A stretch of DNA of 64,000 bases, taken from Saprospiraceae bacterium. Lineage in GTDB: Bacteria; Bacteroidota; Bacteroidia; Chitinophagales; Saprospiraceae. The stretch covers positions 113,226 through 177,225 of the forward strand of contig JAEUUU010000166.1 of assembly GCA_016787345.1 (NCBI GenBank). Direction: 5' to 3'. The notes under the pieces are model-generated. The model ran no database searches and was not told the origin of the DNA. It saw only the letters and a list, made by a program, of their open reading frames with translations. A program made the position numbers and the translations under genes. Shown piece by piece: positions 6,341-20,424 of the stretch (the stretch's first letter is position 1; the number at the start of each line of letters is the position of its first letter).

Positions 6341-6568
6341 TCACTCCGTTTTCAAACGACCTGCCAAATGAAGAATCAACACCCGGATCAACAAGACCCA
6401 GGGCGTGCCGTGCATCACGAGATCGAACCAATCCATCGGCTGCATACCGATGGCGCCGCCAGCCACCCAGCGTATCTTACCCAAAACATGCGGTTCGGGC
6501 GCAAACGGCGCCATGCCCAGGGTCAGGCAGGCCAGCAGGACAAATTTCCAGTCGTTCCAGGGTTTCAT
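6341..6568 (-). CDS. Small conserved membrane protein downstream of sterol desaturase
   Basis: 75 residues with two hydrophobic stretches (FVLLACLTLGMAPF and TPWVLLIRVLILHLA) around a Gly- and Trp-rich middle, KIRWVAGGAIGMQPMDWFDL. Its start overlaps the stop of the sterol desaturase gene by four bases (ATGA), indicating translational coupling. Similar small proteins next to fatty-acid hydroxylase genes are sometimes labelled RND transporter in databases, but it is far too short to be a transporter. It may be an accessory subunit of the hydroxylase; this is inference from the overlap. Confidence 0.65.
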   Translation of the reverse strand: MKPWNDWKFVLLACLTLGMAPFAPEPHVLGKIRWVAGGAIGMQPMDWFDLVMHGTPWVLLIRVLILHLAGRLKTE

Positions 6569-7446: not shown

Positions 7447-7490
7447 CAAAGTTCGCCCGGAATGAAAATCGCGCCTGTGACATTAATCAC
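7447..7490 (-). promoter_or_regulatory. CRP-type site (site A) and -7 element for the sterol desaturase unit
   Basis: GTGACATTAATCAC (7477-7490) fits GTGA-N6-TCAC. On the minus strand a -7-like element GAACTTTG covers 7447-7454. The site centre (7483.5) is 29.5 bp from the element's upstream edge, the same geometry as four other sites in this window. The site also forms the inner stem and loop of the terminator of the soxB-like gene. Confidence 0.6.
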
Positions 7491-7501
7491 GAGGCGCGAT
7501 T
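7467..7501 (-). terminator. Intrinsic terminator of the tsdA-soxB-like operon
   Basis: AATCGCGCCT (7467-7476) pairs with AGGCGCGATT (7492-7501), followed on the minus strand by TTTTC. It starts 8 bp past the soxB-like stop. The 14-bp interior is itself the palindrome GTGA-N6-TCAC, which lengthens the hairpin. Confidence 0.75.
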
Positions 7502-7508
7502 TTTCCGA

Positions 7509-9206
7509 TCAGCGGAATTCGTATTCGACACCCGAAACTTGTGTCAGCAAAGTCTGCGGCGCATCGAGTACCACGGCCGCCCCGGGTGGCGTGGGCGTTA
7601 CAGGCGAGTTGGCTGCCAGGTATTCTTTCAACACGGGATGAAGCGTGTAAGGCATGTTTTTGCCGTCGCGAACATTCGGAATCCGGCAAAGCATCGTCTC
7701 CGGATCGCCGTCGCGCTCACAGGCAGCCAGCGTGTAGGTACGAGCCGGATCGAGCGGCTGACCGGCTACGGTCACACTTTTCACCCGTTTGCCTTGTTCA
7801 GCAAAGGCGTAGAACTTCACTTCCATGCCGCGAAATTTGACTACCCAGCCCCCGAAACGTTTGGAGGCATCCTTGGAAAAAACGTTGTTCAGTTCCTTTT
7901 CCAGCCAGTTCAGGATTTGTTCGCCGGTGGCTTTGGCGGTGCGAACCGTGGCATCCACAGGCAGCATGTCGAAAATATAACCCTCTGTGATCGGGATCAG
8001 GCCGTCTTTGTTTTTTGTACTGCGCGGCGGACAAAAACGGAATCCGTTGGACAACACGATGTCTACCTTGATCTTCCAGGCCAATGCGTCGAGTATCAGG
8101 GTATCTATGGTGTTTTCGACTACGAAATAGCGATAGAGCGGCACCGTGCTGTACCCGACCACCTTTTCAATATCTTTTACAAAGGGCGCTTCCAGTTCGT
8201 CGACAAGTTTGCTGACCGCCTTTTTGGGTTTGTACTTTCGAGCGTCCACTTCCATCAATTCGTAGGAGTTCGAGGTAATTTTCCCGTTTTCCACCGTCAG
8301 ATCGAGCCTGCCGACAAAAGAGCCGAAGGCCCCCGGCTCCACCACTTTGGCGTATTTGCAGACAATGGGCGTACGTACCCGCTCGTGTGTGTCGCCGCCG
8401 AAAATATAGTCGACGCCCTCGCATTCCGGCATGTTGGCCAGTGCGATTTGCTGTGACAGGCCCAGGTGTGAGAGTAAAATGACAAAATCGCATTGTTCCT
8501 GTTCCCGCAATACTTTGACATAGTAGGCCAGGTTTTCCTCCGGTTTGGTATAAATAATTCCTTTCGAATAATTGGGCGACTGGCGCAGGGGCACCAGAGG
8601 ATCGGTATACCCCAAAAAGCCGACTTTGACGCCCAGTCGCGACCAGGTGAAGTACGGCGGAAAGATCAGCTCGCCCTTTTTGCCGTCGCCTGCATCGTGA
8701 AACATATTGGCGCACACTTTGGGGGCTTCCAGACCGCCTAACAGCGATTGCATGGCTTTTTTGTAATAAACCACTTCCCAGTTGCCCGGCAAATAAAGGT
8801 CGTATCCGAGGCTGTCGAGGATCGGCGAGATGGCTTTGCCAGTGGTTTTTACCGACAGTTCACTCCCTTGAAACATATCTCCCGTATCCACAATGAAGGT
8901 GTTTGGGTTCTTTTTGCGCACCTGATCGAACAAGGTGGCCAACTGGGCATAACCCGCTGTTTGTCGGAACACCATGCCGTCGTTTTCCCAAAACATCTCA
9001 TCGTGCGGGTGAATCTGGCAATGGACATCGGTGGTTTGTAGAATAGTCAGCGTGCCGTTGGCGGGCGGCGTTTCCATTTCCTGCAGAGGCGCCTGCGTGG
9101 ACTCCGCAATGGTGGAAGCTACGGCAGTGCCGGCCAGTGGCGATAGGCCAGCGCCCAGTCCGGTAAGCAGCGACTGGCGGAGAAATTTACGACGTGAAGA
9201 GGGCAT
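7509..9206 (-). CDS. SoxB-like metallophosphatase/5'-nucleotidase-family thiosulfohydrolase, Tat-exported
   Basis: 565 residues. The N-terminus has a twin-arginine signal (SSRRKFLR, then a hydrophobic stretch to about residue 31). The N-terminal metallophosphatase half shows TTDVHCQ (Asp60, His62), VDTGDMFQGS (Asp107/Asp110), GNWEVVY (142-148), LSHLGLS and GGDTHER. The C-terminal half is a 5'-nucleotidase-type domain. Ordinary 5'-nucleotidases have GNH-D/E at the third motif. Here it is GNWE, resembling the GHWE of SoxB, which releases sulfate from cysteine-bound thiosulfate. The start codon overlaps the tsdA stop by one base (TAATG), so the two are co-translated. No soxYZ, soxXA or soxCD lies in the window, so the natural substrate is unclear. 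A nucleotidase remains possible, but the context favours sulfur chemistry. Confidence 0.75.
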   Translation of the reverse strand: MPSSRRKFLRQSLLTGLGAGLSPLAGTAVASTIAESTQAPLQEMETPPANGTLTILQTTDVHCQIHPHDEMFWENDGMVFRQTAGYAQLATLFDQVRKKNPNTFIVDTGDMFQGSELSVKTTGKAISPILDSLGYDLYLPGNWEVVYYKKAMQSLLGGLEAPKVCANMFHDAGDGKKGELIFPPYFTWSRLGVKVGFLGYTDPLVPLRQSPNYSKGIIYTKPEENLAYYVKVLREQEQCDFVILLSHLGLSQQIALANMPECEGVDYIFGGDTHERVRTPIVCKYAKVVEPGAFGSFVGRLDLTVENGKITSNSYELMEVDARKYKPKKAVSKLVDELEAPFVKDIEKVVGYSTVPLYRYFVVENTIDTLILDALAWKIKVDIVLSNGFRFCPPRSTKNKDGLIPITEGYIFDMLPVDATVRTAKATGEQILNWLEKELNNVFSKDASKRFGGWVVKFRGMEVKFYAFAEQGKRVKSVTVAGQPLDPARTYTLAACERDGDPETMLCRIPNVRDGKNMPYTLHPVLKEYLAANSPVTPTPPGAAVVLDAPQTLLTQVSGVEYEFR

Positions 9207-10369
9207 TATTTTTTCTGGTTTTGTTTTTGAAATGCGATGATAGGCTGAAACGGCCCGAATTTGTGTTGTATCTCGGGGAAAGTGTCCTTAAACGGTCCAA
9301 ACGGGTGATCATACGGCTTCTTGCCAATTTCCGGCCAGTCCGTCGAGAGGAAAGGGTGGGGCGGGCGTGGTTGCGCATTGATAAATGCCGCAACGTCCCA
9401 GGCTTCTTCGTCGCTCAGCTGCGGATTGTCGTGGCTTGCGCCGAATGGCATATTGGCTTTCACGTATCCGGCCAGCCTGGAAAGGCGGAAGAGGCCCGCA
9501 CCCTGGTTGTAGCTGTTGTCGCCCCACAATGGAGGGTAATCGCGCGGACTATCGGGCATGGGCAGCCCCTGACCGTTGGCGCCGTGGCAGGAGGCGCACT
9601 GGGTTTGATAAACGAGTTTTCCGCGTTCGGGATCGGCCGCACGGTCGAGAAATGGCACTTCCACAAGGCCGGTACCTTTGGGTTTTTCCCCTTTAGGTAC
9701 GCCGGTGCCCAGCCATTCCATGTAGGCAATAATGGCGCGCATTTCGCGTCCGGTGGTGTCGATGGCCTGACCGTTGAGGCTGCGTTGAAAACAATCGTTG
9801 ATGCGTTTCGGGATGGTTTCCATCGATCCGGAGCGGGCGCGCATCTGCGGATAAGTGCTGTTGACGGCAAAATAATTGTTGCCAAAAGGTTTGGCGCCCG
9901 CGTCGAGGTGGCAACTTTGACAATTCAGGTTGTTGATCGAACCCGGTTTAATCATGCCGTTCGGACCGTAATAATCCTGGGTATGCGCGATCAGATCGCG
10001 GCCGTAGGCGATTAATTCGCTGTGCGGGTCTGTTTGCAAGAGGTATTGGTCGGGCGCTTTCCACAACGCGGTCGGGTCGTATACAGGCATGTACCGGGCA
10101 CGTGTTTCCGCTGCCAGTCGGGCGCTTTTCTCACGCGACGACCACCAAAGCACCGTGCCCATTACCACGAGCAATATCGCCAGCATTCGAATCACCACCC
10201 GCAAACGATTGAGAAACAACAATTGCCGGGAGACGGAAAACCGCGCCTGCGGGTGCTGCGCGATCTTCTGCTGCAGATAGGCCACACTTCCCGAAACCGC
10301 CAGAACACCGACCACCATTGCACCGACAACCAACCAAAAAACAGGATAATACAATGAGTTGACTTCCAT
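9206..10369 (-). CDS. tsdA: TsdA-like diheme c-type cytochrome (thiosulfate dehydrogenase family), membrane-anchored
   Basis: 387 residues from the ATG at 10369; in-frame starts further upstream overlap the promoter. Two membrane segments lie at about residues 9-31 and 57-76. Two cytochrome c domains follow, with haem sites CQSCH (150-154) and CASCH (258-262). Around them are the TsdA-type signatures NCQSCHLDAG, IPKRINDCFQRSLNG, YPPLWGDNSYNQGAG, YVKANMPFG and LSDEEAWDVAAFIN. TsdA couples two thiosulfates to tetrathionate and passes electrons to cytochromes; some members run in reverse. It is followed by the soxB-like gene with a one-base overlap, and a CRP-type site lies 71 bp upstream. The family is clear; direction and substrate preference cannot be read from sequence. 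Confidence 0.82.
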   Translation of the reverse strand: MEVNSLYYPVFWLVVGAMVVGVLAVSGSVAYLQQKIAQHPQARFSVSRQLLFLNRLRVVIRMLAILLVVMGTVLWWSSREKSARLAAETRARYMPVYDPTALWKAPDQYLLQTDPHSELIAYGRDLIAHTQDYYGPNGMIKPGSINNLNCQSCHLDAGAKPFGNNYFAVNSTYPQMRARSGSMETIPKRINDCFQRSLNGQAIDTTGREMRAIIAYMEWLGTGVPKGEKPKGTGLVEVPFLDRAADPERGKLVYQTQCASCHGANGQGLPMPDSPRDYPPLWGDNSYNQGAGLFRLSRLAGYVKANMPFGASHDNPQLSDEEAWDVAAFINAQPRPPHPFLSTDWPEIGKKPYDHPFGPFKDTFPEIQHKFGPFQPIIAFQKQNQKK

Positions 10370-10409
10370 AAAACAAAAGGCTAAATCAGAAAACCATTTT
10401 TTTCTGATA

Positions 10410-10453
10410 CAAAGTTTGGCCAACGGCTGCTTATGCAACGTGACATTTCTCAC
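10410..10453 (-). promoter_or_regulatory. CRP-type site (site B) and -7 element of the tsdA-soxB-like operon
   Basis: GTGACATTTCTCAC lies at 10440-10453. The minus-strand -7-like element AAACTTTG lies at 10410-10417, one mismatch from TAnnTTTG. Centre-to-edge distance is 29.5 bp. No TTTG -33 element is evident, consistent with an activator-dependent promoter. Confidence 0.65.
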
Positions 10454-10455
10454 GC

Positions 10456-10489
10456 AAAGAAAAAGCGCCTGTCACATTAACAGGCGCTT
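10456..10489 (-). terminator. Intrinsic terminator of sqr
   Basis: AAGCGCCTGT (10463-10472) and ACAGGCGCTT (10480-10489) form a perfect 10-bp stem with a 7-base loop. On the minus strand the stem runs directly into TTTTTC. It lies 28 bp after the sqr stop. Confidence 0.85.
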
Positions 10490-10517
10490 CACAGAAAATG
10501 TCGCTATGGGTCGCATG

Positions 10518-11711
10518 TCAGGCCAGGCCTTTCAGGATCGCAGACCAGTACATGCGAGGCAAAACTTGTTTTTTCAATTGGTACATCGTCCAGCGTTCCT
10601 TCGACTGATCGAAGGGAAAAGTTTCCATCGGCGTGTTGTTGTAGTCGAATTCGGCGAGCACCAGTTTGCCGTATCCTGTCACCAGCGGGCACGAAGTATA
10701 ACCCAGGTATTGGGCGCTGGGTTGCTGACCGTTCATCACGTCGATGATGTTCTGAACCAGCACGGGCGCTTGTTTGCGGATAGCGGCGCCGGTTTTGGAA
10801 ATGGGCAAACCTGCCGCATCACCGAGCGAGAAGATATTGCCGTAACGCACATGCCGCAGCGTCCCTTTATCCACATCAACCCAACCGGCAGCGTTGGCCA
10901 GAGGGCTCGTCCGGACAAAATCGGGGGCGCTTTGCGGAGGCGTAACGTGAATCATGTCAAACTCCACTTCATACACCTGATCCTTGTTGTCTTCTCCAAA
11001 CCCTACGAAGGTCGCTTTTTTGTTGGGCCCGTCGATCTCTGTGAGATTGACGTTGAAGTTGAGTTTGATGTTGCTGCGTTTGCACACGTTCAGCAGCGTT
11101 TTTTCATAGTGTGGTACTGCAAACAGTTTACCCGCACCGCTCCAGTATTGAATATCAGCCTTGGGCAACAAGCCGTTTTTGCGGAAATAATCGGCAGCGA
11201 GGTACATGATCTTGTGCGGCGCGCCCCCGCATTTAACCGGGGTGGAAGGGTTGTGGAAAATGGCTTTTCCTCCCTTGAAATTTTTGAGACATTCGTAGGT
11301 GTAAGGCGCTGTTTCAAAGGAATAATTGCTGCAAACGTTGTTTTTACCCAGGGTTTCCGGCAGCCCTTTGATAGCCGACCAGTTGAGCTGAATCCCCGGA
11401 CTGACGATCAAATAATCGTAACCCAGCTCACCGTCTTCCAGCAAAACCTTGTTAGACTCGGGATCAAAGCCGGTTGCTTTCGTTTTCAGCCAACTTACGC
11501 CCTTGGGCATTACTTCGGCCTCTTCCCGTACAGTCTCCTGAATATCAAACGCGCCGCCGCCGACAAGCGTCCAGGCAGGTTGATAGTAATGTTTGTCGGC
11601 GGCATCCACGATGGCAATATCCAGTTTCCGGTTCTTGCGCAGCAATTGGGCAGCCACTGAAATGCCGGCATTTCCACCGCCGATAATGACAATTTGGTAG
11701 TGATTTTTCAT
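10518..11711 (-). CDS. sqr: Sulfide:quinone oxidoreductase, type II-like
   Basis: 397 residues. An N-terminal Rossmann FAD motif IIGGGNAGIS (9-18) and HYYQP (41-45) are followed by the SQR signature STPVKCGGAPHK with redox Cys161. A second cysteine, TSCPLVTGYGK (Cys341), and the FAD-contact GNIFSLGDAAGLP (291-303) complete the pattern. The two-cysteine arrangement and TSCPLVTGYG match mitochondrial-type (type II) SQR, which oxidises H2S, reduces quinone and delivers the sulfane sulfur to an acceptor as a persulfide. The two MBL-rhodanese proteins nearby are the expected next step. The gene lies alone between prx and its own terminator. No GTGA-N6-TCAC site is seen upstream, only a GTGA half-site (minus strand, 11778-11781) near the equivalent spot and one copy of TTTGCACTTTT. 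Confidence 0.9.
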   Translation of the reverse strand: MKNHYQIVIIGGGNAGISVAAQLLRKNRKLDIAIVDAADKHYYQPAWTLVGGGAFDIQETVREEAEVMPKGVSWLKTKATGFDPESNKVLLEDGELGYDYLIVSPGIQLNWSAIKGLPETLGKNNVCSNYSFETAPYTYECLKNFKGGKAIFHNPSTPVKCGGAPHKIMYLAADYFRKNGLLPKADIQYWSGAGKLFAVPHYEKTLLNVCKRSNIKLNFNVNLTEIDGPNKKATFVGFGEDNKDQVYEVEFDMIHVTPPQSAPDFVRTSPLANAAGWVDVDKGTLRHVRYGNIFSLGDAAGLPISKTGAAIRKQAPVLVQNIIDVMNGQQPSAQYLGYTSCPLVTGYGKLVLAEFDYNNTPMETFPFDQSKERWTMYQLKKQVLPRMYWSAILKGLA

Positions 11712-11767
11712 ACTTGTGCGTCAGCTTAGTTTTGATCACAAAGGTCTTCCCGGGGATCAAACCGAAC

Positions 11768-11778
11768 TTTGCACTTTT
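11768..11778 (+). repeat. TTTGCACTTTT motif copy upstream of sqr
   Basis: The 11-mer lies 57 bp upstream of the sqr ATG. An identical copy is at 12765-12775 and near-copies at 12715, 12744 and 12872. Role unknown; it may be an operator shared by sqr, prx and pdo. Confidence 0.4.
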
Positions 11779-11922
11779 CACCGGGCTAATGGTGTTTTTC
11801 GGGGATAATAAAATTAAATTACGGAACCGGGGCGCATCAACAAAAATGATTTTACACACACATCGAAATTCGCATTTCCATCCTGCCAATAGCCTTTTAT
11901 TCAAAGTGCACAATACAACGAA

Positions 11923-11953
11923 AGAGGCCATCCTGTACACCAGGACGGCCTCT
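11923..11953 (-). terminator. Probable terminator after the peroxiredoxin gene
   Basis: AGAGGCCATCCTG and CAGGACGGCCTCT form a 13-bp stem with one G-U pair on the minus-strand RNA and a 5-base loop. The trailing sequence is only TTTCGTT, so termination may be modest. It lies 28 bp past the prx stop. Confidence 0.65.
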
Positions 11954-11980
11954 CATCAAAAAACAACTCCAGATGAATTC

Positions 11981-12628
11981 TTAGTTCAGATCGCGTTTGG
12001 CCAGGTAAAAGTCGACCATTTCGTAATTGCTTTTCAGGCGCGTATCCAGTTCGTCGAGTGTTTTGGGCGGCGGCACGATGGCTTTTTCGCCCGGCTTCCA
12101 GTTCAGCGGAAGCGCGCACTTGTGCTCGTCGGCGGTTTGCAGCGCTACCAACACACGTTTGATTTCTTCCATGTTGCGGCCCACGTTGAGCGGGTAGTAC
12201 ATGATCAGTCGAATCTTGAAGTTCGGATCAATGAAAAACACGGCGCGAACGGCAGCGGTTTCGCTTTCGCCGGGCTGCAACATGCCATACGATTTGGCAA
12301 CCGACATATCGAGGTCGGCGATGATCGGGAATTCGAACAGCACGCCGGTTTTTTCCCGCACGTTCTGTACCCATGCAATGTGTGCGTGGATGCTGTCGAT
12401 ACTGAGTCCGATCAGTTTGGTTTTATGTGCAGCGAAGAAGTCTTTTTCCAGGGCAAAGCCCGACATCTCTGTTGTACATACCGGGGTAAAATCTGCCGGG
12501 TGGGAAAAGAGGATGGTCCAGGAGCCTTTCGCGTAGTCTGAAAAACGGAGTTTGCCCGTCGTCGTCATAGATTCGAAATCGGGAGCCAGGTCGCCGATAC
12601 GGGGCATTGTTTGAACAGCAGTTTCCAT
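11981..12628 (-). CDS. Peroxiredoxin, 1-Cys Prx6-type
   Basis: 215 residues with the thioredoxin-fold peroxiredoxin pattern: SHPADFTPVCTTEMSGFAL with peroxidatic Cys51, then DMSVAKSYGML, AVFFIDPNFKIRLIMYYPLNVGRN and the long C-terminal extension typical of Prx6/AhpC2-like enzymes. These reduce peroxides. Some family members also act on persulfides, which would suit its position between sqr and a persulfide dioxygenase gene; that role is inferred. It is transcribed divergently from pdo1 across a 318-bp region. No GTGA-N6-TCAC site is seen upstream. Confidence 0.88.
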   Translation of the reverse strand: METAVQTMPRIGDLAPDFESMTTTGKLRFSDYAKGSWTILFSHPADFTPVCTTEMSGFALEKDFFAAHKTKLIGLSIDSIHAHIAWVQNVREKTGVLFEFPIIADLDMSVAKSYGMLQPGESETAAVRAVFFIDPNFKIRLIMYYPLNVGRNMEEIKRVLVALQTADEHKCALPLNWKPGEKAIVPPPKTLDELDTRLKSNYEMVDFYLAKRDLN

Positions 12629-12946
12629 AATTAATGCTTGGATGCTTTAAAATGAAGTGGAAGGCAAAGGTGCGCCGAACACCCCGGAGTGGTGTAGGAC
12701 ATTTAAGGGCGCTATTGGCACTTTTTACGGAATAGGGCAGGGACTTGTACTTTTCAAATACTATTTTGCACTTTTCCTTTCTCTATACAAAATCTATCTT
12801 AAAAACACAATGACGCAAATTTTTTTGTGGCAAGACTTTGGTCATCGGGCAGGTTTGGGCGCCCCCTGACTTTTGCACTTGTTACCGGTTGAGCAACTAC
12901 CGGCAATTTCATTTCTCACTTTCACAATAAAATTAGCACAACAAAC
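12629..12946. promoter_or_regulatory. Divergent prx/pdo1 regulatory region with repeated TTTGCACTTTT-like motifs
   Basis: This 318-bp non-coding region lies between two divergent genes. I see no credible gene in it. It contains four plus-oriented copies of a motif: TTGGCACTTTT (12715-12725), CTTGTACTTTT (12744-12754), TTTGCACTTTT (12765-12775) and TTTGCACTTGT (12872-12882). An identical 11-mer precedes sqr. No GTGA-N6-TCAC site is present. The motifs may be operators for a second regulator of the sulfide-oxidation genes. Confidence 0.4.
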
Positions 12947-14359
12947 ATGAAAGTTGAACAACTGTATACCGGATGCCTGGCAGAAGCGGCCTACTATATC
13001 GAATCAGACGGGGAAGCAGCGATCATTGATCCGCTTCGCGAAACGAAACCCTACATCGATCGGGCAACTGCCGACGGCGCCAAAATCAAATATGTACTTG
13101 AGACACACTTCCACGCCGACTTCGTATCCGGGCACATCGACCTGGCGAAAAAAACCGGCGCGACCATTGTTTTCGGCCCTACTGCCAAGCCCAATTTTGA
13201 GGCCCACGTCGCACAAGACGGTGAAGTGCTGAAAATCGGCAAGCTCAGTCTGGTTGTTCTGCATACGCCCGGCCACACCATGGAGTCGTCCAGTTTCCTC
13301 CTGCGCGACGAAAACGGTAAAGATGTGGCTGTATTCACCGGCGATACGCTGTTTATCGGCGACGTTGGCCGCCCCGACCTGGCTGTTAAAAGCGATCTTT
13401 CCCGCGAAGACCTTGCCGGCCTGCTGTTCGATTCGCTGCGCAATAAAATCATGACCCTGCCCGACGACGTGATCGTGTATCCGGGTCACGGCGCCGGATC
13501 GGCCTGCGGCAAAAAAATGGCCAAGGAAACCGAAAGCACGATCGGTCTTCAAAAACAATTCAACTACGCCCTTCGCGCCGATATGACCCGCGAAGAGTTT
13601 GTTACCGAAGTGACGACCGGCCTGGTTGATCCGCCGCAGTATTTCCCGAAAAACGCCGTGATGAACCGCATGGGTTATGAAAGCTTCGACAAGGTGATGT
13701 CGCAAGGCGCCCAGGCGCTCAGCCCGCGTGAATTCGTGACGGTTGCCGAATCCACCGGCGCGCTTATCCTCGATACGCGCCCCAAAGAAGCATTCGTCAA
13801 GGGTTTCATCCCCGGCGCTATCTTTATCGGCCTCGACGGCCAGTTCGCGTCGTGGGTAGGCACCCTGATTACCGATCTTCAGCAACCGATTCTTCTGGTG
13901 TGCGAAGCCGGTAAAGAAGAAGAAGCCGTAACGCGCCTCGCTCGCGTGGGCTACGACAACTGCCAGGGTTACCTCGCCGGCGGCCTGGAAGCCTGGAGTG
14001 CCGACAAGCGCGAGGTTGACACACTGGAAGTGATCTCGGCCGACGAGTTCCTGGCTCGTCACAATAAAGGCAACGAAGTGACGCTCGATGTGCGCCGCAA
14101 AAGCGAATACGACACCGAACACCTGGTCGGCGCCAATAATTTCCCGCTCGACTTCATCAACCGCAACATGGCCGAGGTCAATCGCGACACGACTTACCTC
14201 GTACACTGCGCCGGCGGCTATCGCTCCGCCATCGCTGCCAGCATCCTGAAAAGCCGCGGATTCGAAAACGTCGTCGATGTCGACGGCGGCTTCTCGGCCA
14301 TCAAAGCGACCGGAAAAGCTCCACTCACGCAATACGTGGAGCAGATCACGGAACTGTAA
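12947..14359 (+). CDS. MBL-fold/rhodanese/rhodanese fusion, persulfide dioxygenase type (copy 1)
   Basis: 470 residues. Residues 1-245 are a metallo-beta-lactamase fold with ETHFHADFVSGH (His54, His56, Asp58), TPGHTM (His110), FTGDTLF (Asp133) and PGHGAGSACGK. Two rhodanese domains follow. The first (about 262-350) has loop CEAGKEEE with Cys319. The second (about 365-460) has the classical CAGGYRS loop with Cys421. Such fusions include the ETHE1-like persulfide dioxygenase CstB, which oxidises persulfides to sulfite or thiosulfate. A sulfur cycle with SQR upstream and thiosulfate-handling TsdA/SoxB-like proteins fits. The gene is monocistronic, ending in a strong terminator. Compare copy 2 at 18908, where the first rhodanese cysteine is lost. 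Confidence 0.85.
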   Translation: MKVEQLYTGCLAEAAYYIESDGEAAIIDPLRETKPYIDRATADGAKIKYVLETHFHADFVSGHIDLAKKTGATIVFGPTAKPNFEAHVAQDGEVLKIGKLSLVVLHTPGHTMESSSFLLRDENGKDVAVFTGDTLFIGDVGRPDLAVKSDLSREDLAGLLFDSLRNKIMTLPDDVIVYPGHGAGSACGKKMAKETESTIGLQKQFNYALRADMTREEFVTEVTTGLVDPPQYFPKNAVMNRMGYESFDKVMSQGAQALSPREFVTVAESTGALILDTRPKEAFVKGFIPGAIFIGLDGQFASWVGTLITDLQQPILLVCEAGKEEEAVTRLARVGYDNCQGYLAGGLEAWSADKREVDTLEVISADEFLARHNKGNEVTLDVRRKSEYDTEHLVGANNFPLDFINRNMAEVNRDTTYLVHCAGGYRSAIAASILKSRGFENVVDVDGGFSAIKATGKAPLTQYVEQITEL

Positions 14360-14399
14360 AAGAAACGATGTGTACTTGACAGAGTAGTCTTCCATAGAC

Positions 14400-14435
14400 A
14401 ACCCGACCAGCCGGAATTGGTAGGTCGGGTTTTTC
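14400..14435 (+). terminator. Intrinsic terminator of pdo1
   Basis: AACCCGACC (14400-14408) and GGTCGGGTT (14423-14431) form a perfect 9-bp stem followed by a T run, 40 bp after the pdo1 stop. Confidence 0.85.
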
Positions 14436-14447
14436 TATTTATGACAG

Positions 14448-14455
14448 TACCTTTG
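14448..14455 (+). promoter_or_regulatory. Bacteroidota -7 element for the TlpA-like gene
   Basis: TACCTTTG matches TAnnTTTG and lies 22 bp before the ATG at 14478. No TTTG is found at the -33 position, which overlaps the pdo1 terminator. Confidence 0.45.
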
Positions 14456-14477
14456 TTGCAGAATCAGACTTAAAGCA

Positions 14478-15668
14478 ATGAAAAAGAATTGGTTAGGTGT
14501 AAGCGCTGCATTCGCGATCATCCTGTTTTCGATTTTTGCCGCACAATGCCAGACGCGCACCGGAATACGCGGAAAAATTGAAATGGCCCCGGGCTGGAAA
14601 TCGGTGCTCTATTTGATCGAGCCGGTTAATTTCAGCGACATATCGGCTTCTTACAGCGGCCGGCTGGTGGATTCCACGATAATCCTTCCTGACGGAAGTT
14701 TCGTATTTCAACTTCCTGAATCCGGACAGATCAAACTCTACCAACTGTGTATACAAAAAACGGGCAGCCGTTTTTTCAATAAACTGGAGGATACCCCGGA
14801 AGAGCGCAATTTTTTTCCGATCGTAATGCAGCCTGGAACTCCGATTCAATTTTATTCAAAAGCCGACCAGTTCCTCTCGCAGGCCCGCATAGAGCAGCCA
14901 TCGCCCGACCATCGGGCATTAATGCAATTGCGCGACGTCTGGATGGCCGCACAAACCAATTTTCAGGAGACTGTCCGGAACATCGACGATGCGGACGAGA
15001 ACGCCATACTTGCCCACGAAACCGCACTCGAACGATACCGGGCGTCCCTGATGGCGTTTGCCGATACGACGCAGTCATTTTACGCGGCCCTTGTGGCCAT
15101 CCGGTGGGTCAGCCCGGAAAACGATTACGAACGTATTCCCGAGTTTTTGGCCAGTCAATGCCGACGCTGGCAGGCAATTTATCCCGGCGAACCATACACC
15201 CTGCATTTATGTCAAATGGCGCACCCTGCGCAGTTGCCGGTTATGGTAGGCGATGTCATGCCTAATGTCGAACTCCCGATGATGGATGGTAAAACGGATA
15301 GTCTGTATCATCTGTTGGGCCCAAAACTCACGTTGATCGACTTATGGGCATCCTGGTGCGCGCCATGCCGGAAAGAAAACCGGGAAGTGCTGGTCCCTTT
15401 GTATCAGGAAACGAAAGACAAAGGCTTCCAGATCGTCGGCTATGCGCTCGACAGCAATGAAAAAGGCTGGAAGGCAGCCATTGCAAAAGACCAGGCTTTA
15501 TGGCCGCAAAGTTCTCATTTACAAGGAGATGTGAGTCCATTCCTTGATCTTCTGCGGATCAGAACAATACCCGCCAATTTTTTGCTCGACAGCCAGGGCA
15601 GGGTAGTTGCCAAAAACCTGCACGGCGAAGAACTCAGTGCCCTTGTTCGGGCGTACCTCGAAAAATAG
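14478..15668 (+). CDS. TlpA-like periplasmic thioredoxin-fold disulfide reductase
   Basis: 396 residues with a signal peptide of about 25 residues. Residues 30-130 form a beta-rich domain like the DUF4369 modules often fused to Bacteroidota thioredoxins. A helical linker follows, then a thioredoxin domain (about 255-396) with the active site ASWCAPCRKE and a downstream cis-proline segment RIRTIPANFLLD. Such proteins act as periplasmic thiol reductases, for example in cytochrome c maturation. Its place between pdo1 and the small DUF2892 genes suggests service to the c-type cytochrome or to protein persulfides, but it has its own promoter element and no CRP-type site. General family is certain, specific role unknown. 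Confidence 0.8.
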   Translation: MKKNWLGVSAAFAIILFSIFAAQCQTRTGIRGKIEMAPGWKSVLYLIEPVNFSDISASYSGRLVDSTIILPDGSFVFQLPESGQIKLYQLCIQKTGSRFFNKLEDTPEERNFFPIVMQPGTPIQFYSKADQFLSQARIEQPSPDHRALMQLRDVWMAAQTNFQETVRNIDDADENAILAHETALERYRASLMAFADTTQSFYAALVAIRWVSPENDYERIPEFLASQCRRWQAIYPGEPYTLHLCQMAHPAQLPVMVGDVMPNVELPMMDGKTDSLYHLLGPKLTLIDLWASWCAPCRKENREVLVPLYQETKDKGFQIVGYALDSNEKGWKAAIAKDQALWPQSSHLQGDVSPFLDLLRIRTIPANFLLDSQGRVVAKNLHGEELSALVRAYLEK

Positions 15669-15681
15669 GGCAGGGGAGTGG

Positions 15682-15739
15682 CGGTTTCGTACAGTCGGCA
15701 ATCAGAAAAAAATTGCCCGACGCCGTCCGTACGAAACCG
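15682..15739. terminator. Long imperfect hairpin between convergent genes
   Basis: CGGTTTCGTAC (15682-15692) pairs with GTACGAAACCG (15729-15739), and an inner GGCAAT pairs with ATTGCC across an A-rich loop. It sits between the convergent TlpA-like and DUF2892 genes. It is probably a bidirectional stop signal, although neither side has a clean T run. Confidence 0.45.
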
Positions 15740-15747
15740 GCATGCAT

Positions 15748-15957
15748 TTACTTTTGGGATGTAGGGCAGGTCGACAATCCTACGATCGCGTAAAGCGGGC
15801 AAAAACTGACGACGCTGGTCAGTGTAAAAATAGCGGCGACGACGATGGCGACAATACCCAGCGTACCCGTCAGCGTACCGTTGAAGAAAAGGAATGCGGC
15901 GATCGCTGCAATCACGAGGCGAACGATCCGGTCGATGTTACCCATGTTCTTTTTCAT
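15748..15957 (-). CDS. DUF2892-family small membrane protein
   Basis: 69 residues that begin MKKNMGNIDRIVRL and contain two adjacent hydrophobic helices (about 10-27 and 30-49), then SFCPLYAIVGLSTCP with two cysteines. This matches the DUF2892 (YgaP membrane-domain-like) family, often found with rhodaneses. Its start lies 21 bp after a 32-residue membrane peptide under CRP-type site E. The function of the family is not established; association with sulfane-sulfur trafficking is inferred from context. Confidence 0.8.
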   Translation of the reverse strand: MKKNMGNIDRIVRLVIAAIAAFLFFNGTLTGTLGIVAIVVAAIFTLTSVVSFCPLYAIVGLSTCPTSQK

Positions 15958-15978
15958 GGCAGTTCAAATTGTAGTTGG

Positions 15979-16077
15979 TTAACGAATGATTTGTACCAGC
16001 CAGACGATGAGGCCAATCAGACCCGCGCAAAGCAGGCAAACGATAAAGAGTTTCAGCAATGGCGGCCAGTTTTTCAT
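15979..16077 (-). CDS. 32-residue single-span membrane peptide
   Basis: An ATG at 16077 opens a 32-codon frame beginning MKNWPPLLKLFIVC, continuing as one hydrophobic helix and ending WLVQIIR then TAA. It starts about 49 bp downstream of the perfect CRP-type palindrome (site E) and ends 21 bp before the DUF2892 gene, so it would be the first gene of that unit. The charge and hydrophobicity pattern (short basic start, one helix, basic end) resembles a small membrane protein. It might instead be an untranslated leader; conservation would decide. Confidence 0.5.
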   Translation of the reverse strand: MKNWPPLLKLFIVCLLCAGLIGLIVWLVQIIR

Positions 16078-16097
16078 CGTGGAGGCTTTTGACAAAT

Positions 16098-16143
16098 CAA
16101 AGTTCTCCTTTCCACGGCAGGGTTTATGTGATCGCGATCACAT
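16098..16143 (-). promoter_or_regulatory. CRP-type site (site E, perfect 18-bp palindrome) and -7 element
   Basis: ATGTGATCGCGATCACAT (16126-16143) is a perfect palindrome containing GTGA-N6-TCAC. The minus-strand -7-like element GAACTTTG lies at 16098-16105. Centre-to-edge distance is 29.5 bp, identical to sites A and B. It overlaps the last codons and stop of the Crp-family gene, so that regulator may influence its own transcript end as well as the downstream unit. Confidence 0.65.
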
Positions 16144-16791
16144 AGCCTGAAAAATTTCAATAACACCTCTCGAATGGCGCAATGCGCCCCGTTCTTCCAG
16201 CTGGCGGATCAGCCGCGAGACCGCCTCCCGCGAACTGTTGAGATCGTCGGCAATCTGTTGTTGGGAAATGCGGATCTGACGGGTTTGTAAGGCCGAGGCT
16301 TTTTCTTTGAGATAGTTGAGCAGTCGCTCGTCAAGTCGTTGAAAAACAACACTTTCCAATGCCTGCAGTAGTTCGTCGTACCGGCGGCCGAAGCTGTCGA
16401 AAGCAAAACGCTGCCACGACGGAAACTTCCGGGCGGCTTCGTACACTTCCATGGCCGGCAACAACAATACCCGGGTAGTTTCCTGCGTCAGAGCATTGAT
16501 CCGGCTGCGCTCGTTTTTGTAACAGGTATTGAGTGTGATGGCGCAGGTCTCACCGGGCAGGATGTAGTACAAAAAAATCTCCCGGCCGCCGGGATCTTCC
16601 GTCGATACTTTGATAGAGCCTTGTAAAACCAGTGGTACGTGGCGTACGGCGCCACCAACCTGCATGAGGGTCTGCCCAGGCCCGACTTCGGCAAAAACTG
16701 ACTTATCGAGTAGCCATTGCGCAAGTTCGTGTTGCTCAAAAGCTGGGAAAATCCTGCGCAAAGCGGCCGCATCCAACGGGTGTTGCATCAT
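16138..16791 (-). CDS. Crp/Fnr-family transcriptional regulator, proposed sulfur regulator
   Basis: 217 residues from the ATG at 16791; the next codon is also ATG. Residues 1-120 form a cyclic-nucleotide-binding-like domain with GPGQTLMQVG and LPGETCAITLNTCYKNERSRI (Cys83, Cys90). A long dimerisation helix and a winged HTH follow. The recognition helix NSSREAVSRLI keeps the R-E-x-x-x-R pattern that E. coli CRP uses to read GTGA. No N-terminal iron-sulfur cysteines are present, so this is not a classical FNR. Five GTGA-N6-TCAC sites surround it upstream of sulfur genes. The two effector-domain cysteines could sense sulfide or persulfide, but this is speculation. A strong promoter at 16797-16828 suggests a nearly leaderless transcript. 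Confidence 0.85.
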   Translation of the reverse strand: MMQHPLDAAALRRIFPAFEQHELAQWLLDKSVFAEVGPGQTLMQVGGAVRHVPLVLQGSIKVSTEDPGGREIFLYYILPGETCAITLNTCYKNERSRINALTQETTRVLLLPAMEVYEAARKFPSWQRFAFDSFGRRYDELLQALESVVFQRLDERLLNYLKEKASALQTRQIRISQQQIADDLNSSREAVSRLIRQLEERGALRHSRGVIEIFQAM

Positions 16792-16796
16792 GCCGC

Positions 16797-16828
16797 CAAA
16801 TATAGACAGAGTAGGGGAGAGGCCCAAA
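16797..16828 (-). promoter_or_regulatory. Sigma-A promoter of the Crp-family regulator
   Basis: On the minus strand, TTTG (16825-16828), a 20-bp spacer and TATATTTG (16797-16804) give a full match to the Bacteroidota consensus. Predicted transcription starts about at the ATG (16791), implying leaderless or near-leaderless mRNA. The -33 element overlaps the T run of the upstream terminator. Confidence 0.65.
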
Positions 16829-16862
16829 AAATGCTGCCAGGCAAGACGAGCCCGCCCGGCAG
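16825..16862 (-). terminator. Terminator of the yeeE-rhodanese operon
   Basis: CTGCC (16834-16838) and GGCAG (16858-16862) close a GC-rich hairpin of minus-strand sequence, followed by TTTTTTGG at 16825-16830. It separates the transporter/rhodanese operon from the regulator gene. Confidence 0.6.
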
Positions 16863-16912
16863 TAATGGAGAATGAAAATGGGTATGTTTTAACGAAGAAA
16901 TCTCCGCGCCAT

Positions 16913-17170
16913 TTAGTTTTTTGCAGATTTCACTTCCTCCACGGACAATTCGATCTCGTTGTCATCTACCTGATTTCGTTGGTAACGATCGGGCGTGCTG
17001 CAGCCCGCAGCGCCACAGCAGCCAATATCGAAGATGGCCTGCATGGCGAACAAAACACCGGGCATCAGCAGCAACCATTCGCTGGTACGGAACGCTTCGA
17101 ATATCGCCCAACCACCGAGAAGTGCGCGCATGATGCGCATAAAATGCCAGTTTTGAAATAAAGTGCTCAT
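16913..17170 (-). CDS. Small Cys-rich membrane protein of the sulfur operon
   Basis: 85 residues. A hydrophobic pair of segments (RALLGGWAIFEAF and WLLLMPGVLFAMQAIF) is followed by IGCCGAAGCS, with three closely spaced cysteines, and an acidic tail. The start is 6 bp after the rhodanese stop, and a terminator follows, so it is the last gene of the operon. The cysteine cluster on a membrane helix pair suggests a sulfur or metal relay partner for the rhodanese, but no function is known to me. It resembles proteins grouped near DUF2892. Confidence 0.65.
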   Translation of the reverse strand: MSTLFQNWHFMRIMRALLGGWAIFEAFRTSEWLLLMPGVLFAMQAIFDIGCCGAAGCSTPDRYQRNQVDDNEIELSVEEVKSAKN

Positions 17171-17176
17171 TGTACC

Positions 17177-17584
17177 TCAGTTTGAAGTTGTTTTTTGATT
17201 GGCACGCAGCCAACCGCTGATGCCCGGAGAGAGGTCGTAAACCTTCAGAAAGCCTTTCTTTTCCAACACGGCAGCCGCCTGCGCACTACGAACGCCTGAT
17301 GCACAGTAAACCAGTACAGGTTTGTTTTTGTCCAGCCGGTCAATTTGTTTGGAAAAATCGGCGCTGGCGATGCTGAAGTTTACAGCATTGGAAATTACGC
17401 CGGTAGCCGCCACTTCACCGGGAGTCCGAACGTCGACAATCTGAAGATTTTTTTCAGATTGAATAAGCTGAATTGCCTGCTGGACATCGATGCGCGCCAG
17501 TTTGGGCTTAGCGCCCGATTGTCCGCATGCGTTGAGGCTCATCAGGCCAGTAAGCAGCAAAATAGCAAGAGTGTATTTCATCAT
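17177..17584 (-). CDS. Rhodanese-domain lipoprotein
   Basis: 135 residues. A lipobox SLNAC (Cys20) predicts a lipoprotein facing the periplasm. The single rhodanese domain has IVDVRTPGEV (49-58) and the active-site loop CASGVRS with Cys94. It can carry a persulfide and transfer sulfane sulfur. It lies 20 bp downstream of the second YeeE half and 6 bp upstream of the Cys-rich membrane protein, so it likely presents sulfur to, or accepts it from, the transporter. The gene is transcribed from site C. Confidence 0.85.
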   Translation of the reverse strand: MMKYTLAILLLTGLMSLNACGQSGAKPKLARIDVQQAIQLIQSEKNLQIVDVRTPGEVAATGVISNAVNFSIASADFSKQIDRLDKNKPVLVYCASGVRSAQAAAVLEKKGFLKVYDLSPGISGWLRANQKTTSN

Positions 17585-17604
17585 GTAATACGTTTATAAG
17601 CGAA

Positions 17605-18150
17605 TTAATGCGGCAGTTTTTCCCTGAAATAGCCATATACCCAGGTGCCTGCTATTGCGCTGACCAGGGTAACCGTAATCACCAAAGCGCCGGTACCGAT
17701 TTGCGCAAACAAAGGGCCGGGGCACGCGCCAGTCATGGCCCATCCCAAACCAAATATCAAACCGCCGATGATCTGGCCTTTGTTGAATTTTTTCGGGTGA
17801 AAAAGGATTTCTTCGCCGTATATACTTTTGATTTTGAGTCTTTTAATTAAAAAAACCGATAGCGCTCCAATCACAACGGCAGTACCGATGACGCCATACA
17901 TATGAAACGATTCGAGGCGAAACATTTCCTGAATACGGTACCAGGATACAATTTCAGCCTTCACGAAAGCCAGTCCAAAAAACAGACCGACCGCCGTGTA
18001 TTTCAGATTGTACCACCACGGGTGCTTCAATTGCGATTCATTGACGCACATGGTATCCAGTGAGCGCACTTCGAAATCGGCATTTTGATCAACTGCCTCC
18101 TGGGCAGGTTGTGAGGGTGCGGGAAGTTGAAATTCTTTTATCGTGGACAT
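17605..18150 (-). CDS. YeeE/YedE-family transporter, C-terminal half
   Basis: 181 residues. After a soluble N-terminal extension of about 45 residues, four hydrophobic segments follow. The conserved motif GWAMTGACPGPLFAQIG contains a cysteine typical of the second half of YeeE/TsuA thiosulfate transporters. In many bacteria these are one 350-400-residue protein; here the halves are encoded by adjacent genes 24 bp apart. TsuA-type proteins pass thiosulfate through a cysteine relay. Substrate here (thiosulfate or another sulfur species) is inferred from family and neighbours. Confidence 0.82.
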   Translation of the reverse strand: MSTIKEFQLPAPSQPAQEAVDQNADFEVRSLDTMCVNESQLKHPWWYNLKYTAVGLFFGLAFVKAEIVSWYRIQEMFRLESFHMYGVIGTAVVIGALSVFLIKRLKIKSIYGEEILFHPKKFNKGQIIGGLIFGLGWAMTGACPGPLFAQIGTGALVITVTLVSAIAGTWVYGYFREKLPH

Positions 18151-18174
18151 GGCAGAATTTGCTTTGAGAGGGTT

Positions 18175-18735
18175 TTACAGTGCGAGAATGTAGGGTAAAA
18201 TGAGGTTGGCCATGATAAAGCCCCCGACCATAAATGAGATCGTAGCGATCAGCGACGGAACCTGCAAATCGGAAAGCCCCATGATCGCATGTCCGGAAGT
18301 ACACCCGCCGGCATAACGGGTGCCAAAGCCGATCAGAAAACCGCCAATAACCATCAGAATAAACCCGCGAAGGGAAAACAAACTTTCCCAACTAAATAAA
18401 TCGGCAGGGACAAGTCCGTCAATTTGGGTAACACCCTGAGCAGCCAGGTCTGCTGCCAGATCGGGGTGAATCTGAACGGGATCGGGGTTTTGAAACCAAA
18501 CGGTTGCAATAATCGCCCCCAGAAGTATGCCTCCTACGAAGAAGAAATTCCAGACTTCCTTTTTCCAGTCGTACTGAAAAAATTTGATGTTGGCCGGCAA
18601 ACAGGCCGCGCAGAGGTGCCTTAAATTAGCCGAAATACCAAAGTGTTTGTTACCGAGAATCAGCAAGGCGGGCACGGTAAGACCGATAATGATACCGGCC
18701 GCCCACCAGGGCCAGGGATGAGAGAGTAGTTCCAT
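18175..18735 (-). CDS. YeeE/YedE-family transporter, N-terminal half
   Basis: 186 residues from the ATG at 18735. An in-frame TTG at 18765 is rejected because it lies inside the -7 element. Four membrane helices are visible. The motif GFGTRYAGGCTSGHAIMG carries the cysteine characteristic of the first half of YeeE/TsuA transporters. It is the first gene of a four-gene operon: two transporter halves, rhodanese lipoprotein, Cys-rich membrane protein. A CRP-type site lies just upstream. Confidence 0.85.
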   Translation of the reverse strand: MELLSHPWPWWAAGIIIGLTVPALLILGNKHFGISANLRHLCAACLPANIKFFQYDWKKEVWNFFFVGGILLGAIIATVWFQNPDPVQIHPDLAADLAAQGVTQIDGLVPADLFSWESLFSLRGFILMVIGGFLIGFGTRYAGGCTSGHAIMGLSDLQVPSLIATISFMVGGFIMANLILPYILAL

Positions 18736-18762
18736 ATTTCGTGTACTTTCGATTTCTTGATA

Positions 18763-18807
18763 CAAAGTTATTGCGGCAGGAAGCCCCTATGGCGTGACAT
18801 ATATCAC
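18763..18807 (-). promoter_or_regulatory. CRP-type site (site C) and -7 element of the yeeE operon
   Basis: GTGACATATATCAC lies at 18794-18807. The minus-strand -7 element TAACTTTG (18763-18770) is a full match to TAnnTTTG. Centre-to-edge distance is 30.5 bp. If transcription starts about 5 bp past the element, the site is centred near -43, as in class II CRP activation. Confidence 0.7.
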
Positions 18808-18841
18808 ACCTGAACCAAAGAGACAGGGTAGGAGAGGGGCA

Positions 18842-18873
18842 AAAAAATAGCTGCCGGCGCTTTACCGGCAGCT
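18842..18873 (-). terminator. Intrinsic terminator of pdo2
   Basis: AGCTGCCGG (18849-18857) and CCGGCAGCT (18865-18873) form a perfect 9-bp stem with a 7-base loop, followed on the minus strand by ATTTTTTT. Confidence 0.88.
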
Positions 18874-18907
18874 AGTAATAACGTTCAATCAACTTCTTCT
18901 TTTCTTA

Positions 18908-20326
18908 TCAGAGCAGTGTGGTCGGACACACGTATTCCGTTACTTCGAACCGGTTGCTTTCCTTGATTGCTTTGAATCCGCCGCGCACATCGACCAGATT
19001 GTCGAAGCCGCGCGCACGAAGGGCACTGGCAAAAATCATGGAGCGGTATCCGCCGGCGCAATGAATAAACACGGTTTTCTCTTTGGGCAGTTTCGACATG
19101 GCTTCATTGAGAAAATCCAGGGGGGCATTTTCTGCGCCCACAATGTGCTCGCTCTTGAATTCACTTTCTTTACGCACATCGAAAACGATGGCTTTCGGGT
19201 CGGCCTGCTGAATATCGGCCAGTTCTTCGGCCGACACACGCTGGATGTTGTCAACTTCCATACCGGCCGCTTTCCAGGCATCGAAGCCGCCTTCCAGATA
19301 ACCCAGGCAATAATCGTATCCGACGCGGGCCAGGCGGGTAACCACCTCTTCTTCGCGGCCCGGTTCGGCGATCACCAGAATCTCCTGTTTGACGTCGGGA
19401 ATCAGCGCGCCTACCCAGGGAGCAAACTGGCCGTCGATACCGATATTGATGGAGTTGGGCACAAAACCTTTCGAAAACGTCTCTGCATCGCGGGTGTCGA
19501 GCAGCAGGGCGCCCGTTTCGTTGGCAGCGGCTTCAAATGCACGGGGCGATAAGGCGCGGGTACCGCGTTCCATCACCACGTCGATGCTGTCGTAACCCTG
19601 TTTATTGAGGGCTACATTGAGCGGGAAATAGGCTGGGGGAGGGGTAAGCCCGGTCGTTACCTCTTTGACAAATTCTTCTTTCGTCATGTTGGCACGCAAA
19701 GCGTAATTGGTCGCTTTTTGATTGCCCAGCGTATCGAAAGTCTCTTTCGACATTTTTTTACCGCAAGCCGAGCCTGCGCCGTGGGCCGGATACACGATCA
19801 CGTCGTCGGGTAAGATCATCACCTTGTTACGAAGTGATTCGTAGAGTGTTTCTGCGAGTTGTTCCTGAGTCATGTGTGCGGCTTTCTGAGCCAGGTCGGG
19901 GCGGCCAACGTCGCCGATAAACAACGTATCGCCCGAAAACAGGGCTTTTTCCTTGCCGTTTTCATCAATCAGCAGGTAGCAGGTGCTTTCCATAGTGTGG
20001 CCGGGCGTGTGCAAAACGCGGAAAGTCACTTTACCGACTTTGAATTCTTCGCCGTCTTTGGCAATATAGGCGTCGAAACTCGGGTTGGCGTTGGGGCCGT
20101 ACACGATCGGCGCGTTTGTCTTTTGGGAAAGATCCAGGTGCCCGCTGACAAAATCGGCGTGAAAGTGCGTCTCAAAAACGTATTTGATTTTGGCGCCGTC
20201 ATTTTCCGCCTTTTCGAGATACGAGGCTACTTCACGTAGCGGGTCGATCACAACGGCTTCGCCTTCGCTTTCGATGTAATATGCGCCTTGTGCCAGGCAG
20301 CCGGTATAAATTTGTTCGATCTTCAT
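18908..20326 (-). CDS. MBL-fold/rhodanese/rhodanese fusion, persulfide dioxygenase type (copy 2)
   Basis: 472 residues, collinear with copy 1 at 12947. The MBL domain keeps ETHFHADFVSGH, TPGHTM, SGDTLFIGDVGRPDL and AHGAGSACGK. In the first rhodanese domain the active-site loop reads AEPGREEE, with Ala320 where copy 1 has cysteine, so this domain cannot form a persulfide at that position. The second domain keeps CAGGYRS (Cys423). Expression is probably driven from site D about 91 bp upstream, whereas copy 1 lacks such a site. The two copies may thus serve different conditions or substrates. Confidence 0.85.
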   Translation of the reverse strand: MKIEQIYTGCLAQGAYYIESEGEAVVIDPLREVASYLEKAENDGAKIKYVFETHFHADFVSGHLDLSQKTNAPIVYGPNANPSFDAYIAKDGEEFKVGKVTFRVLHTPGHTMESTCYLLIDENGKEKALFSGDTLFIGDVGRPDLAQKAAHMTQEQLAETLYESLRNKVMILPDDVIVYPAHGAGSACGKKMSKETFDTLGNQKATNYALRANMTKEEFVKEVTTGLTPPPAYFPLNVALNKQGYDSIDVVMERGTRALSPRAFEAAANETGALLLDTRDAETFSKGFVPNSINIGIDGQFAPWVGALIPDVKQEILVIAEPGREEEVVTRLARVGYDYCLGYLEGGFDAWKAAGMEVDNIQRVSAEELADIQQADPKAIVFDVRKESEFKSEHIVGAENAPLDFLNEAMSKLPKEKTVFIHCAGGYRSMIFASALRARGFDNLVDVRGGFKAIKESNRFEVTEYVCPTTLL

Positions 20327-20379
20327 GACAGAGTCTTTTTTTCTGTGTAAGAGTACTTTAAGTGAGTAATTTGATGAGG

Positions 20380-20424
20380 CAAAGATGAGGGCCTCAAAGC
20401 CGGGCGATTCGTGACAGAAGTCAC
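20380..20424 (-). promoter_or_regulatory. CRP-type site (site D) and -7 element of pdo2
   Basis: GTGACAGAAGTCAC lies at 20411-20424. The minus-strand -7-like element CATCTTTG (20380-20387) has one mismatch from TAnnTTTG. Centre-to-edge distance is 30.5 bp, matching site C. Confidence 0.65.

Follow-up and report, generated by a model that had tools for sequence, protein, structure and literature searches.

A putative CRP-type regulon with class II promoter geometry at sulfur genes of a Saprospiraceae bacterium

The window analyzed is a 64,000-nucleotide stretch of contig C130 from a Saprospiraceae bacterium whose genome comprises 5.28 Mb in 191 contigs. Five sites of the type GTGAN6TCAC are found on its minus strand, each at a nearly fixed distance upstream of a -7 element that resembles TAnnTTTG, and they surround a gene for a Crp/Fnr-family regulator, termed Crp A. 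The sites very probably belong to a CRP/FNR regulon with class II geometry that acts at Bacteroidota sigma-A promoters, where the site replaces the -33 element. Sites, spacing, conservation, gene content and the co-variation of site with recognition helix were determined by computation.

Results

Five sites at a fixed distance from -7 elements

The sites and their -7 elements are given below. The offset is the number of bases between the site centre and the first base of the TAnnTTTG-like 8-mer, read in the gene direction (minus strand).

7477..7490, minus strand: site 1, GTGATTAATGTCAC, upstream of the fatty-acid hydroxylase gene; the weakest of the five
7447..7454, minus strand: -7 element of site 1, GAACTTTG, offset 29
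10440..10453, minus strand: site 2, GTGAGAAATGTCAC, upstream of the tsdA-like gene
10410..10417, minus strand: -7 element of site 2, AAACTTTG, offset 29
16128..16141, minus strand: site 3, GTGATCGCGATCAC, overlaps the crp stop codon, upstream of the YgaP-like (DUF2892) gene
16098..16105, minus strand: -7 element of site 3, GAACTTTG, offset 29
18794..18807, minus strand: site 4, GTGATATATGTCAC, upstream of yeeE
18763..18770, minus strand: -7 element of site 4, TAACTTTG, offset 30, an exact TAnnTTTG
20411..20424, minus strand: site 5, GTGACTTCTGTCAC, upstream of the MBL-rhodanese gene pdo2
20380..20387, minus strand: -7 element of site 5, CATCTTTG, offset 30

The five sites had been proposed in an earlier sequence-only reading of the window, and all fit GTGAN6TCAC exactly. 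The distances of 29.5 or 30.5 bp given there are the same measurement as the offsets of 29 (7477, 10440 and 16128) and 30 (18794 and 20411). The gene names assigned in that reading roughly hold, since FA_hydroxylase, a SoxA/TsdA-type cytochrome c, YgaP-like_TM, YeeE and an MBL-rhodanese fusion are found behind the sites. It also described most -7 elements as off consensus and without a -33 TTTG. Here the boxes display one mismatch to TAnnTTTG in four of five cases and none at 18794. In Bacteroidota the -33 TTTG is separated from the -7 box by a spacer of 19–21 bases; at the five promoters this distance leads to the end of TCAC and the adjoining downstream bases. The class II position refers to geometry, that is, to the offsets of 29 or 30 at all five sites and in homologous loci.

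Enrichment in the window and the genome

The window contains six exact GTGAN6TCAC sequences, compared with a mean of 0.70 and a largest count of 3 in 100 dinucleotide shuffles. Genome-wide there are 50, and the reversed control gives 25. In simulations with 50 randomly placed sites, a cluster of five within 12,948 bp arose 3 times in 20,000. A relaxed search of the whole window, which allowed up to two mismatches in the half-sites and required the spaced A and the TTTG of the -7 box, returned these five sites only; 40 single-base block shuffles gave means of 0.075 (one mismatch) and 0.775 (two mismatches) and none exact. No additional spaced sites, e.g. at the prx, sqr and pdo1 genes, were found in the window by a looser search.

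The spacing provides stronger evidence than these counts. A TTTG at offset 29 or 30 is present at seven of the 50 genomic sites and at none of the reversed ones. The seven are the five sites of the window and two on contig C12, beside a second crp gene (Crp B), where they lie upstream of genes for an OprD-type porin and for TauE. The sequence-only reading had allowed for such further copies, and had named equal frequency of the motif in shuffled or unrelated sequence as a refutation; the motif is not equally frequent there. The C12 module is as follows.

L040 5038-8196: OprD-like porin, TauE, Crp B and the two spaced sites

The sixth exact sequence of the window (62988-63001), overlooked in the sequence-only reading, lies within an open reading frame (62706-63542, plus strand), displays no TTTG at the spacing and is probably a chance occurrence. 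A Sigma-70-type promoter scan found 12 matches, compared with 14.0 in shuffles, and an Rfam search gave 0 matches; neither was informative.

Conservation of spacing and gene content

Among 36 genomes of the same genus the spaced pattern occurs 231 times and its reversed control 28 times; with the spacing lengthened by 5 the count is 51, with a reversed control of 35. A set of 115 loci chosen by crp homology alone contains 107 non-redundant GTGA sites, and a TTTG follows at offset 29 in 42 and at offset 30 in 25 of these, compared with no more than 6 at any other offset between 10 and 89. Loci L186-L205 and L040 had been selected for carrying the spaced pattern and thus add to a first spacing peak; the 115-locus count leaves them out.

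The order crp stop codon, site, next gene recurs in many Bacteroidota loci, and sites 10440, 16128, 18794 and 20411 have counterparts ahead of the same genes in relatives. The first genes behind 72 spaced promoters from the window, C12 and the loci of relatives (one more promoter has no open reading frame downstream) fall mostly into the Pfam families rhodanese (15), Lactamase_B (13), TauE (10), Sulf_transp (10), OprD (8) and SoxA-TsdA (6), with overlapping counts. Since either crp homology or the pattern guided the choice of these loci, the tally characterizes the regulon and should not be taken as an unbiased count.

Co-variation of site and recognition helix

The recognition helix of Crp A is SSREAVSR and keeps the R-E-x-x-x-R attributed to it by the sequence-only reading. 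At the helix position that corresponds to Glu181 of CRP, the residue varies together with the site: Glu is found with GTGA, Val with GTAA and Ala with GCTA. All 256 half-sites were scanned with the spacing fixed. For the 83 Glu-helix loci the first-ranked half-site is GTGA, with 75 spaced placements and 102 sites; for the 17 Val-helix loci it is GTAA, with 11 and 20, and for the 7 Ala/Thr-helix loci it is GCTA, with 4 and 5. This first scan left out L245 and L253, which carry both helix types, and included the near-copies L071, L106, L207 and L281. Eighty named loci had been found by two peptide patterns, one of which demands a Glu helix, so that their ratio of Glu to Val is unrepresentative.

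For a second set the prediction for Glu and Val was fixed beforehand, and both parts held. The set comprises 91 Crp rows in 90 loci across the phylum, with one mixed locus and two duplicates left out. GTGA is the top half-site in 36 Glu loci (7 spaced, 17 sites), where GTAA has 0 spaced of 5, and GTAA is the top half-site in 46 Val loci (11 spaced, 34 sites), where GTGA has 1 spaced of 1. Counted at whatever spacing, the sites divide 17:5 versus 1:34 (Fisher p 3e-9, ignoring relatedness). Five loci whose helix was unread by the script were counted apart (GTGA 1 spaced of 2, GTAA 0 of 1), and no Ala-helix rows were read in this set.

The orthologous position at the crp stop codon displays the same relation within the group of the window crp. 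A perfect GTGA/TCAC is present in all five Glu members (the window and L071-L074, L071 being near-identical to the window) and in none of nine non-Glu members. The latter have four GCTA palindromes, two GTGA/GTTA hybrids, two GTAA/GCTA hybrids and one case without a site; a TTTG at offset 29 is kept in all eight that have a site, by manual count on the sequence. The next gene after crp in L076, L077, L080 and L082 was recognized by script as encoding the YgaP-like protein of the window (PF11127 confirmed for L077 and L080). GCTA palindromes are located as follows.

L077 9709, L078 7631, L080 9747 and L082 1554: Ala-helix Crp relatives of the same genus with GCTAN6TAGC at the crp stop codon, 29 bases from TTTG

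The sharp spacing peak and the co-variation of site and helix support, as the best reading of these sequences, a CRP-type regulon in class II geometry.

Observations that weigh against the regulon

Several results count against this reading or limit its extent. The 16-mer TGTGAN6TCACA with up to two mismatches is not enriched in the window (20 found, 20.87 expected), and the claim thus depends on exact half-sites at the fixed distance. Among 23 genomes of the same order the excess of the spaced pattern is modest (30 versus 18 in the control; 19 versus 16 with shifted spacing). The Glu-helix rows L208-L210 have no perfect site at the crp stop codon. When spaced sites were scored within 3 kb of 209 Crp rows (five duplicate loci dropped), 77 of 131 Glu-helix genes had no GTGA, GTAA or GCTA site and 6 had GTAA only (45 GTGA only, 3 both), while 47 of 70 Val-helix genes had none of the three and 2 had GTGA only (20 GTAA only, 1 both). 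GCTA is found at four of six Ala-helix genes. A 77-row tree built without the helix region requires at least 8 changes of helix type, but no more than two independent Glu/Val pairs stand on well-supported branches; shared ancestry may therefore account for part of the link between helix and site.

Site 7477 adds two further points. It forms the upper stem of a hairpin resembling an intrinsic terminator (-25.1 kcal/mol, z -7.2), which is followed by U residues, and no counterpart was found in the fetched stretches around the hydroxylase gene of G017, G021 and G010. A 97%-identical stretch of G025 retains the site. The hydroxylase gene of G012 directly follows the tsdA- and soxB-like genes, with a single upstream site, and G020 has a spaced site some 0.5 kb ahead of a partial match. 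Site 7477 may be both terminator and operator, or a terminator only. To extend this to some or all of the sites, as mere hairpin or terminator sequence or chance palindromes, is extremely improbable: the 7477 hairpin and the chance-like 62988 sequence would fit, but the other four sites fold with z of only -2.7 to -0.7, and spacing, conservation and helix co-variation would be left unexplained.

Strong hairpins of the intrinsic-terminator type also occur between minus-strand units, at 10462-10490, 11922-11954, 16834-16862 and 18848-18874 (minus strand); one of them sits just upstream of the crp start.

Crp A and its paralog on contig C12

Crp A belongs to the CRP/FNR superfamily, with PF00027 and PF13545 above cut-off, and its predicted fold matches CAP/CRP structures (mean predicted local distance difference test score 88.2). 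The genome displays 15 matches to the cyclic nucleotide monophosphate (cNMP) domain; the SSRE..SR helix is found only in Crp A and Crp B. Crp B, overlooked in the sequence-only reading, has 37% identity to Crp A. Both have the R-E-x-x-x-R helix and are equally suited paralogs. The binder in this genome would be Crp A, paralog B, or both.

It has nearly an even chance of being correct that the sites are real operators, but mainly of paralog B, with Crp A controlling no more than the site that overlaps its own stop codon. The shared helix fits this, and orthologs of B (at least 65% identity) occur in 20 of 37 genus genomes, those of A (at least 60%) in 6 of 37. Genomes with B have a mean of 8.05 spaced sites (n = 20), compared with 4.53 in those without (n = 17; Mann-Whitney p 0.002, relatedness ignored). 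However, genomes without a B ortholog can be rich in sites (G005 17, G017 9, G009 8, G022 8), and the site at the crpA stop codon tracks the helix residue of the crpA group.

The effector pocket

Cys81 (numbering of alignment A1) is invariant in all 209 homologs and adjoins a predicted helix (82-90) that takes the position of the phosphate-binding cassette. A Cys occupies position 87 in 137 and position 88 in 112 of the 209 (overlapping counts). The arginine at position 93, which would hold cAMP (cyclic AMP), occurs in just 21 of the 209, and B has Ala there; Ser94 is present in 202 of 209, and Crp A keeps Arg93-Ser94. The phosphate-binding Arg-Ser pair of a cAMP-dependent CRP ortholog is not conserved across the homologs. 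Crp A scores 41.7 bits with the curated CRP model NF008732, whose cut-off is 266.

The half-site and helix are those of E. coli CRP, which together with the Arg93-Ser94 of the window protein would suit an ordinary cAMP-dependent CRP for carbon control that includes sulfur genes by chance. This is quite improbable in view of the scarce arginine, the low score with the curated model and the downstream genes, which are mostly of sulfur-type families. The invariant pocket cysteine and the poorly kept arginine suggest a signal that is thiol-based, probably sulfane sulfur. Cys81 is also found in homologs without a recognized sulfur gene nearby and may thus be a trait of the whole group.

It is quite possible, though somewhat short of an even chance, that these proteins form a phylum-wide Bacteroidota Crp subfamily in which an invariant Cys starts the phosphate-binding helix, often with a second Cys 6-7 residues further on. 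Its members would be cAMP-independent cysteine sensors of reactive sulfur and class II activators of sulfur genes, and their helices and operators would have changed together several times.

The second pocket cysteine was considered as a marker of sulfur loci and rejected. The association is weak (61 of 71 Crp rows with sulfur neighbors versus 23 of 36 without, rows with an unread motif being dropped), and rows with an SPRE helix beside sulfur genes have no second Cys.

Organization of the locus

The minus-strand run from 6.5 to 20.4 kb encodes an MBL-rhodanese fusion, YeeE, YedE, a rhodanese, the Crp/Fnr regulator and the YgaP-like membrane protein and, further on, a protein similar to sulfide:quinone reductase, a SoxA/TsdA-type cytochrome, a protein similar to SoxB and a fatty-acid hydroxylase. 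The window crp has a 99% match in JADZFP010000235.1 (metagenome-assembled genome SJ871 of a Saprospiraceae bacterium). The principal genes are as follows.

6565..7437, minus strand: FA_hydroxylase-family gene
7509..9206, minus strand: SoxB-like / 5'-nucleotidase-family gene, downstream of the tsdA-like gene
9206..10369, minus strand: SoxA/TsdA-type cytochrome c gene (tsdA-like)
15748..15957, minus strand: YgaP-like_TM gene (PF11127; DUF2892 in the sequence-only reading)
16138..16791, minus strand: Crp A, Crp/Fnr-family regulator with helix SSREAVSR; ATG at 16791 or 16788, reading frame opens at 16827
17177-17584, minus strand: rhodanese gene, after yedE
17605-18150, minus strand: yedE, after yeeE
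18175..18735, minus strand: yeeE (Sulf_transp)
18908..20326, minus strand: pdo2, an MBL-rhodanese fusion similar to persulfide dioxygenase

An open reading frame of 85 amino acids at 16913-17170 (minus strand), between the rhodanese and crp genes, has no Pfam match. The same is true of a 542 amino acid protein at 4673-6301 (minus strand), where three of eight homologs in the genus loci have a spaced GTGA site upstream. The sulfide:quinone reductase-like protein at 10518-11711 (minus strand) scores 245.7 bits with NF049943 (cut-off 525); its gene has no upstream spaced site in the window, and its homologs have one in 0 of 4 cases in the genus loci and in 2 of 12 in the phylum set. Genes too close to a locus edge were set aside in these upstream counts.

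Discussion

Relation to known systems

At E. coli CRP class II promoters a GTGAN6TCAC core is bound by an R-E-x-x-x-R helix, with the centre some 29 bases ahead of the -10 box, i.e. near -41.5, and a -35 element is not needed. The promoters described here share the core, the helix, the distance from centre to box and, presumably, the dispensability of a -35/-33 element. They differ in the TAnnTTTG box, the pocket cysteine, the lack of a conserved cAMP arginine and the sulfur targets.

SoxR of Hyphomicrobium and SqrR/BigR/YgaV are regulators of the ArsR type. Control of sulfur genes is common to them and to the regulon proposed here, as is the thiol sensing suggested for it. They are of another protein family, however, and SoxR represses, whereas class II activation is proposed here. 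In the available parts of PMC10451225 and PMC9774250 these proteins are described as sulfur-responsive regulators, with repression in the SoxR paper.

Mutants of E. coli CRP at Glu181 have altered specificity. In the portion of PMC1274295 (2005) at hand, residues 180 and 181 of CRP/FNR regulators are linked to the motif, and HcpR2 with Pro181 has GTAACnnnnGTTAC, a core that is also that of the Val-helix sites here. The link between residue 181 and motif is already known from that work and is not new here. HcpR controls hcp and nitrosative stress, whereas the Val/GTAA and Ala/GCTA pairs occur in a different group, in many cases next to sulfur genes. No mention of a distance between site and -7 box was found in the same portion of that paper.

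The section of PMC9723704 consulted places TAnnTTTG at -12 to -5 in Flavobacterium. Bacteroidota sigma-A promoters and those of the window share this box; in the latter the right half-site takes the -33 place. In the available text of PMC10100741 CRP serves for coevolving residue pairs, which is irrelevant here, and that of PMC12040651 gave no motif or sulfur link. No recognized description of a Crp/Fnr sulfur regulon in Bacteroidota was found in the literature searched, as far as its texts were available, in a search that is partly weak since its wording may miss the spelling "Crp/Fnr".

Proposed mechanism

We infer binding, activation and a signal at these putative operators as follows. A CRP/FNR dimer would bind GTGAN6TCAC centred 29–30 bases upstream of TAnnTTTG. 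With the -7 box at -12 to -5, the site centre would lie at about -41.5 or -42.5, and the right half-site would therefore occupy the place of the -33 TTTG. The regulator would recruit RNA polymerase to promoters that have no -33 element and switch on sulfur genes, i.e. those for thiosulfate and persulfide oxidation, YeeE/YedE, TauE, rhodaneses and a porin. The most likely signal would be a reactive sulfur species, sensed through cysteines of what was once the cyclic-nucleotide pocket.

A repressor bound over the -33 place could instead block RNA polymerase. The site does overlap that place, and repression would leave the same conservation. This is unlikely, since promoters that lack a -33 element and have -7 boxes off consensus in four of five cases suit activation, and the strict spacing of 29 or 30 would be expected of contact with polymerase and not of a block.

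Significance

If class II activation by a CRP-type protein is correct, the sites define a widely shared transcriptional switch of the Bacteroidota for sulfur oxidation and persulfide handling, and a CRP-type activator can substitute for the -33 element at the unusual promoter of this phylum. A thiol-sensing CRP subfamily is proposed. The natural pairs in which helix residue and operator appear to have changed together would, if true, make the CRP recognition code testable in evolution.

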